This document shows positions 402-32,271 of a DNA stretch of 64,000 nt, one piece after another. The stretch comes from Thermococcus camini. Its GTDB lineage: Archaea; Methanobacteriota_B; Thermococci; Thermococcales; Thermococcaceae. Made by a program: the position numbers and the translations under genes. Within the stretch, counting starts at the first letter, position 1, and each line of letters begins with the position of its first letter. The notes below the pieces were generated by a model. It was not told the DNA's origin. It saw only the letters and a program-made list of their open reading frames with translations, and did not search any database. The stretch lies in NCBI RefSeq assembly GCF_904067545.1, contig NZ_LR881183.1, positions 1,678,277 to 1,742,276 of the forward strand, written 5' to 3'.

Positions 402-461
402 CCGATGAAGAGTGTCATCCCTCCTGACGCCAAGATGATGACATTATCCCCACCTGAGGTG
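402..461 (+). ncRNA. Candidate C/D box guide sRNA with two guides against 23S rRNA
   Basis: The order is that of an archaeal box C/D sRNA: C-like box GATGA (404-408), 15-nt guide, D' box CTGA (424-427), 7-nt spacer, perfect C' box ATGATGA (435-441), 12-nt guide, D box CTGA (454-457), closed by a short CACC/GGTG terminal stem. The D' guide contains TGTCATCCCT (413-422), identical to window positions 27691-27700, which are antisense to the 23S rRNA. The D guide contains TTATCCCCA (444-452), identical to 27670-27678. Both guides can therefore pair with 23S rRNA sites about 12 nt apart, near the peptidyl transferase centre. By the fifth-nucleotide rule the predicted 2'-O-methyl targets are the G residues encoded at 27697 and 27675. 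The first two bases of the C box are degenerate. Confidence 0.75.
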
Positions 462-466
462 GTTCC

Positions 467-27183: not shown

Positions 27184-30213
<3,030 letters not shown>

Positions 30214-30222
30214 CCCTACTCA

Positions 30223-32037: not shown

Positions 32038-32271
32038 TTACCCCCGAGGGGTCCGCCTTTCGGCGTTTCCTCGGGAGCGCACATTGCTGTGACCCGAGCT
32101 GGAGGGCGGGGTTCATCGTGGGTGCTTTGCACCCTGTCCCCCCGACGCCGCCGTCTTGGCGCTCGGGTTTTGTCGCGCCCTGTTCGGGCGCTCCATCCAA
32201 TAGGGGTGAACCCCACCGATACAAAATTTTTGCAAAACCCCTCCCAGGCCAGATTCTTAAAAAAGAAGCTG
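32038..32271 (-). promoter_or_regulatory. rRNA operon leader and promoter region
   Basis: The 320 bases between the 16S gene and the next coding region hold no gene. On the minus strand two AT-rich boxes could be the TATA element: TTTTTTAAGAATC (about 32264-32252) and AAAAATTTTGTAT (about 32234-32222). The leader contains a perfect GCGCCC/GGGCGC hairpin with a 5-base loop (about 32184-32200) and other GC-rich stems before the processing stem. I cannot decide which TATA box is used. Confidence 0.6.

Follow-up and report, generated by a model that had tools for sequence, protein, structure and literature searches.

The sR55 C/D box sRNA gene of Thermococcus camini: guides to 23S rRNA, a shared ribosome-binding site and probable integration-site use in relatives

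Positions 401–459 of the window (the whole 64,000-nucleotide stretch of Thermococcus camini DNA analysed) are a dual-guide C/D box sRNA that belongs to an already known family, sR55. A cmscan search against all Rfam families places sR55 there on the + strand over its full length (69.1 bits, E = 5.7e-18), well above the 35-bit gathering threshold of RF01307; the next families, sR47, sR3 and sR1, fall far under their own cut-offs. A sequence-only reading had called a C/D box sRNA at 402–461 from the order and spacing of its boxes and proposed a comparison with covariance models. The boxes lie where it put them and the model search agrees; the locus stands, and the boundaries need a small correction to the family limits. 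That reading missed two features taken up below: box D overlaps the ribosome-binding site of the downstream gene, and in relatives the gene very probably serves as an integration site. A literature search for the name sR55 returned no archaeal paper on it.

Boxes and conservation

401–459, + strand: sR55 C/D box sRNA (Rfam RF01307), full-length cmscan model match, with orthologues in 83 of 94 Thermococcales genomes
402–408, + strand: box C (CCGAUGA; DNA CCGATGA), read from the sequence; CGATGA in 74 of 80 orthologues
424–427, + strand: box D' (CUGA; DNA CTGA); CTGA, CCGA or CGGA in 80 of 80 orthologues
435–441, + strand: box C' (AUGAUGA; DNA ATGATGA); RUGANGA kept in 80 of 80 orthologues
454–457, + strand: box D (CUGA; DNA CTGA), CTGA in 76 and CCGA in 4 of 80 orthologues

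The boxes follow one another as C, D', C' and D with guide spacing within 8–16 nt, the arrangement of an archaeal C/D sRNA. The terminal stem that closes the C/D k-turn is ACC/GGU (401–403 with 458–460), and RCC/GGU is found in most orthologues. The C-D'-C'-D motif has a single match in the window and none in 100 Markov windows. The 83 genomes score above the family cut-off; a further 21 genomes, from the same class but other families, have no sR55. Three of the 83 extracted loci were other sRNAs and were left out, giving 80 for analysis. Loss of the boxes in related genomes had been named beforehand as the outcome that would speak against a C/D sRNA; all four are recognisable at every one of the 80 loci, and the D' guide matches the rRNA over nine bases at each.

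Guides, targets and covariation

413–422, + strand: D' guide TGTCATCCCT, complementary to 23S rRNA encoded at 27691–27700; nine of its ten bases invariant across all 80 orthologues, the remaining one (422) covarying with the rRNA
444–452, + strand: D guide TTATCCCCA, complementary to 23S rRNA encoded at 27670–27678; 9-nt match retained by Thermococcus and by three sister genera
27691–27700, − strand: D' guide target, with the predicted 2'-O-methyl G encoded at 27697 (LSU 2519, approximately E. coli 2422)
27670–27678, − strand: D guide target, with the predicted 2'-O-methyl G encoded at 27675 (LSU 2541, E. coli G2446)

The 23S gene runs from 27187 to 30215 on the − strand and the guides equal the + strand there; both are therefore complementary to the rRNA. 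The coordinates of the 10-nt and 9-nt matches in the local 23S gene are as first read, with 12 nt between the two sites, and the guides upstream of D' and D pair with the rRNA over segments that include the N+5 nucleotide. For each guide the 23S site is the longest match in 16S and 23S rRNA, with no equally long one elsewhere. Adjacent matches of this kind had been judged unlikely by chance, and none of 40,000 random pairs of 12-mers drawn from the window matched rRNA at 10 or more and 9 or more nt within 100 nt (analytic estimate about 5e-5).

The N+5 rule, applied to the sequence, predicts the same two Gs as methylation targets as the earlier reading. In a MAFFT alignment they correspond to 2415 and 2439 of the E. 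coli 23S copy used, in which GGGGAUAACAG starts at 2437. In the standard numbering A2451 lies inside the GGGGAUAACAG motif, which puts the predicted sites at about C2422 and G2446 in E. coli. They lie on the strand that passes through H74 into the peptidyl-transferase ring. No published methylation map of G2519 or G2541 was found in the papers searched; a RiboMeth-seq dataset for P. furiosus exists as GSE153501. Separately, the minimum-energy fold pairs the D' guide sequence GUGUCAUC with the C' box region GAUGAUGACAU (window 412–443), to which it is complementary; this pairing would compete with that to rRNA. The window also contains a Pab19 H/ACA sRNA immediately before the 16S gene (32088–32191; Rfam RF02794, 93.8 bits); in T. 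kodakarensis the corresponding RNA is likely transcribed together with the rRNA operon (PMC4247193).

The N+2 base of the D' guide (window 422) agrees with the rRNA gene in 42 of 44 genomes (T:T in 29, A:A in 13, two exceptions). The A:A state is spread over the genera g2, g4 and g5 and one Pyrococcus-group genome, and the guide therefore follows the rRNA. The D' guides of G076 and G077 have one mismatch, at N+2. At these loci (L128 and L129) the 23S target reads T, as in Thermococcus (g1), while other g4 genomes have A and the guide itself has A; the pattern suggests that an exchange of 23S sequence between genera may have left the mismatch behind. The D guide has nine matching bases in g1, g2, g4 and g5, and this drops to six or seven bases for Pyrococcus (g3) and g6, for whose D guide no better target was found, the longest match being at most 8 nt with the rRNAs of the window as proxy. 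The function at G2541 may therefore be absent in Pyrococcus. Here two matches (10 and 9 nt) reach 9 nt or more inside a span of 100 nt; the Pyrococcus sR55 orthologues lack such a pair. With the D guide eroded in g3 and g6, the dual-guide claim is sound for T. camini, not for all sR55. As a case of guide–target co-evolution bordering on the peptidyl-transferase centre, the sRNA is clean and testable.

It is vanishingly improbable that C/D-like boxes came together by chance and match the rRNA by coincidence, short as the boxes are and with thousands of rRNA positions on offer. Conservation and covariation already refute this reading, and the Rfam score, the orthologues, the guide-pair trials and the Markov windows likewise exclude it.

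Expression and the downstream gene

366–374, + strand: TATA-like element CTTTTTAAG, read from the sequence; start predicted near 399–400 by analogy with the T. kodakarensis orthologue
456–461, + strand: Shine-Dalgarno sequence GAGGUG of the downstream ORF, read from the sequence; overlaps box D and the sRNA 3' end
467–931, + strand: conserved 154-aa ORF with the sRNA as 5' leader; no Pfam or NCBIfam match above cut-off, 51–98% identical orthologues behind sR55

The transcript expected at this locus has been published for the T. kodakarensis orthologue. The sR55 copy in G023 (1476852–1476910) coincides with the published sR52/Tko-sR54 of T. kodakarensis (1476851–1476917), and the 23S coordinates agree too; partly on this agreement G023 is taken as T. 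kodakarensis KOD1. For this RNA, 28,701 small-RNA reads are reported, together with 467 circular reads that drop to 6 without the RNA ligase TK1545; transcription starts at 1476850 and the circle spans 1476851–1476917, 67 nt (PMC9014305). The start site precedes the first family base by 2 nt, and the circle runs up to the base that precedes the AUG of the following gene (within the authors' tolerance of ±5 nt). A stable small transcript is documented through this orthologue only, in published data (PMC9014305).

A homologous ORF follows sR55 at 76 of the 80 loci, its start codon usually 7–9 nt past the family 3' end; it is missing in G001, G075, G079 and G084. No sequence relative of the 154-aa ORF was found in Pfam or NCBIfam above cut-off or in the PDB. 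Its structural model (pLDDT 79) gives, in a fold search, a weak resemblance to the nucleoside 2'-deoxyribosyltransferase fold (best E 0.008). An inverted repeat, CCACC-UGA-GGUGG, surrounds box D (window 451–463). The minimum-energy fold pairs GGUGG of the Shine-Dalgarno sequence with CCACC at the end of the D guide, with a z-score of only −1.4.

Sequence, family membership, guide–target pairing, covariation, conservation and the published expression of the orthologue lead us to the following account, which we hold with very high confidence. sR55 is most likely transcribed from the TATA-type promoter at about 366–374. We infer that L7Ae, Nop5 and fibrillarin bind the C/D k-turn and the C'/D' k-loop, and that the D' and D guides would set fibrillarin on G2519 and G2541 of 23S rRNA (window 27697 and 27675) for 2'-O-methylation. 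Both nucleotides would fall in the H88/H74 segment, which runs on into the peptidyl-transferase centre. Since box D doubles as the Shine-Dalgarno region of the gene that follows, the same primary transcript probably serves as the 5' leader of the downstream mRNA. Release or assembly of the sRNA should then lower or alter translation of that gene.

Two other readings turn on this leader position. The element might act chiefly in cis, as a leader k-turn of the 154-aa ORF on which L7Ae masks the ribosome-binding site, with no guide acting in trans. There is a precedent, as L7Ae represses its own mRNA through a leader k-turn that masks the Shine-Dalgarno sequence (PMC5539422); T. kodakarensis has 11 snoRNAs inside 5'-UTRs, for which Jager et al. 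raised a cis-regulatory option in general (PMC4247193); and box D overlaps the Shine-Dalgarno sequence in nearly all genomes. However, the strict rRNA complementarity and the covariation of the guides would be purposeless in a pure cis element, the sRNA is kept in the four genomes that lack this ORF behind it, and the orthologue builds up as a circular RNA. We consider this reading very unlikely.

Both roles together have a better, if somewhat less than even, chance: sR55 would guide methylation in trans and also control the ORF, by k-turn masking or by processing that removes the Shine-Dalgarno sequence. Such 5' overlaps are rare, at 7% of archaeal C/D sRNA genes, and go with weaker expression of the gene behind them (PMC7994747), yet here the overlap is conserved. 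The circle of the orthologue stops right before the AUG, so its processing would yield a leaderless mRNA, and GGUGG is sequestered in the predicted fold. Against this, a shared promoter may alone explain the conserved adjacency, and the z-score of the fold is modest. A regulatory second role of sR55 for the downstream ORF is no more than plausible, and the overlap makes sR55 well suited to the question whether an rRNA guide can control a gene as well.

The sR55 gene as a probable integration site in relatives

401–416, + strand: equivalent of the att-site core ACCGATGANGAGTGTC; core found at island ends in about ten relatives, unoccupied here

Sequence comparison of the flanks indicates that in Thermococcales the sR55 gene has very probably served tyrosine-recombinase mobile elements repeatedly as an attachment site. 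The crossover would lie in the first 16–20 nt (box C and the start of the rRNA guide), and each integration would rebuild the sRNA downstream of a promoter that the element brings along. These 16–20 nt (ACCGATGANGAGTGTC) recur on the same strand, always upstream, in about ten Thermococcales genomes. A second copy of the core lies 19.7 kb upstream of sR55 in G021, 22 kb in G036, 12.3 kb in G043 and 44.6 kb in G076; G042 has copies 22.5 and 46.6 kb upstream and two islands in tandem. The draft genomes G054, G057, G063, G067 and G081 have core copies on separate contigs. The islands with a duplicated sR55 5' end measure 12–47 kb (L169/L170/L176 in G042, L171 in G043, L174/L175 in G021, L177/L178 in G036 and L179/L181 in G076).

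The two copies differ in their surroundings. The 300 nt in front of the far copies in G042, G036, G054 and G057 show 80–89% identity, up to the core, to the uninterrupted sR55 5' flank of other genomes; past the far core the sequence switches to an element end common to G021, G042, G054, G057 and G063. At the near copy sR55 is complete, and the 5' flank before it is unrelated; in many genomes this flank is a conserved stretch in which TTAACCGATGAC motifs recur. PHROG integrase matches lie beside core copies in G021 (2.5e-7), G036 (1.8e-5), G042 (5.9e-6) and G043 (2.2e-13); that of G043 also matches Pfam PF00589 at 7e-6, and G042 has a C-terminal integrase fragment at the sR55 end (3.5e-36). 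The G021 integrase has no match in plasmid or phage collections. The relatives together display direct repeats of the target at the two ends of the island, the native flank on one side, the full gene restored on the other and an integrase beside one end. The island of G043 carries type I restriction-modification genes and one of those in G042 a primase-polymerase.

The T. camini genome has no second same-strand core, and the site is therefore unoccupied. An extra 1.4 kb upstream of sR55 in T. camini is a gene common to G044 and G017 and not an island, and a weak att-like match in G015 was set aside because it is unrelated.

About 25 genomes (e.g. L021, L028, L051 and L066) share a conserved 5' flank element of approximately 180 nt, with TTAACCGATGAC at about −183 and −74, and in most genomes GGGATGA(C/T) near −92, which in many reads GGGATGACA, the target sequence of the D' guide. 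This flank is likely the attachment arm of the element, with putative integrase or excisionase binding sites. An ancestral leader was considered for it; the attL/attR comparison shows it to be the end of the element, at least in G042 and other island-bearing genomes. Small proteins with a SYSYSDI-like motif adjoin the sR55 end of several islands (L173:13826–14314, L169:673–1200 and L177:370–966) and are candidate recombination directionality factors.

The use of sR55 as an att site appears to be unreported and may be new, within the papers searched. The RNA genes catalogued as archaeal integration sites are tRNA genes, and the review of pTN3-type integrases discusses tRNA genes, the words snoRNA, sRNA and non-coding RNA being absent from it (PMC8371274). 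If true, the finding would give a methylation-guide gene the role of landing site that usually belongs to tRNA genes.

With the Rfam sR55 family, described as a Pyrococcus C/D box sRNA (RF01307), the window copy has in common the boxes, the D' guide and the UCCCCA-CUGAGG 3' end. Six nt of the longer Pyrococcus consensus are absent from it, and its 9-nt D guide match to 23S rRNA is stronger than the 6–7 nt of the Pyrococcus members. It resembles the double-guide archaeal sRNAs of Dennis et al. 2015 in having two near targets in one rRNA; both guides fall within 100 nt of the same rRNA in 262 of 489 archaeal sRNAs, about half (PMC4644070). A term search of the main text of that paper found no mention of Pyrococcus or T. 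kodakarensis. Tko-sR54/'sR52' of T. kodakarensis (Jager 2014; PMC9014305, Table 1) occupies the orthologous place before the same ORF and has the same guides; its transcript is published, whereas sR55 of the window is known here from its sequence. The islands, finally, recall the pTN3-type integrases, whose attB lies in the 5' half of tRNA genes (PMC8371274): in both cases recombination takes place within the 5' part of an RNA gene and leaves that gene whole at one end, but at sR55 the target is a C/D box sRNA gene and not a tRNA gene.
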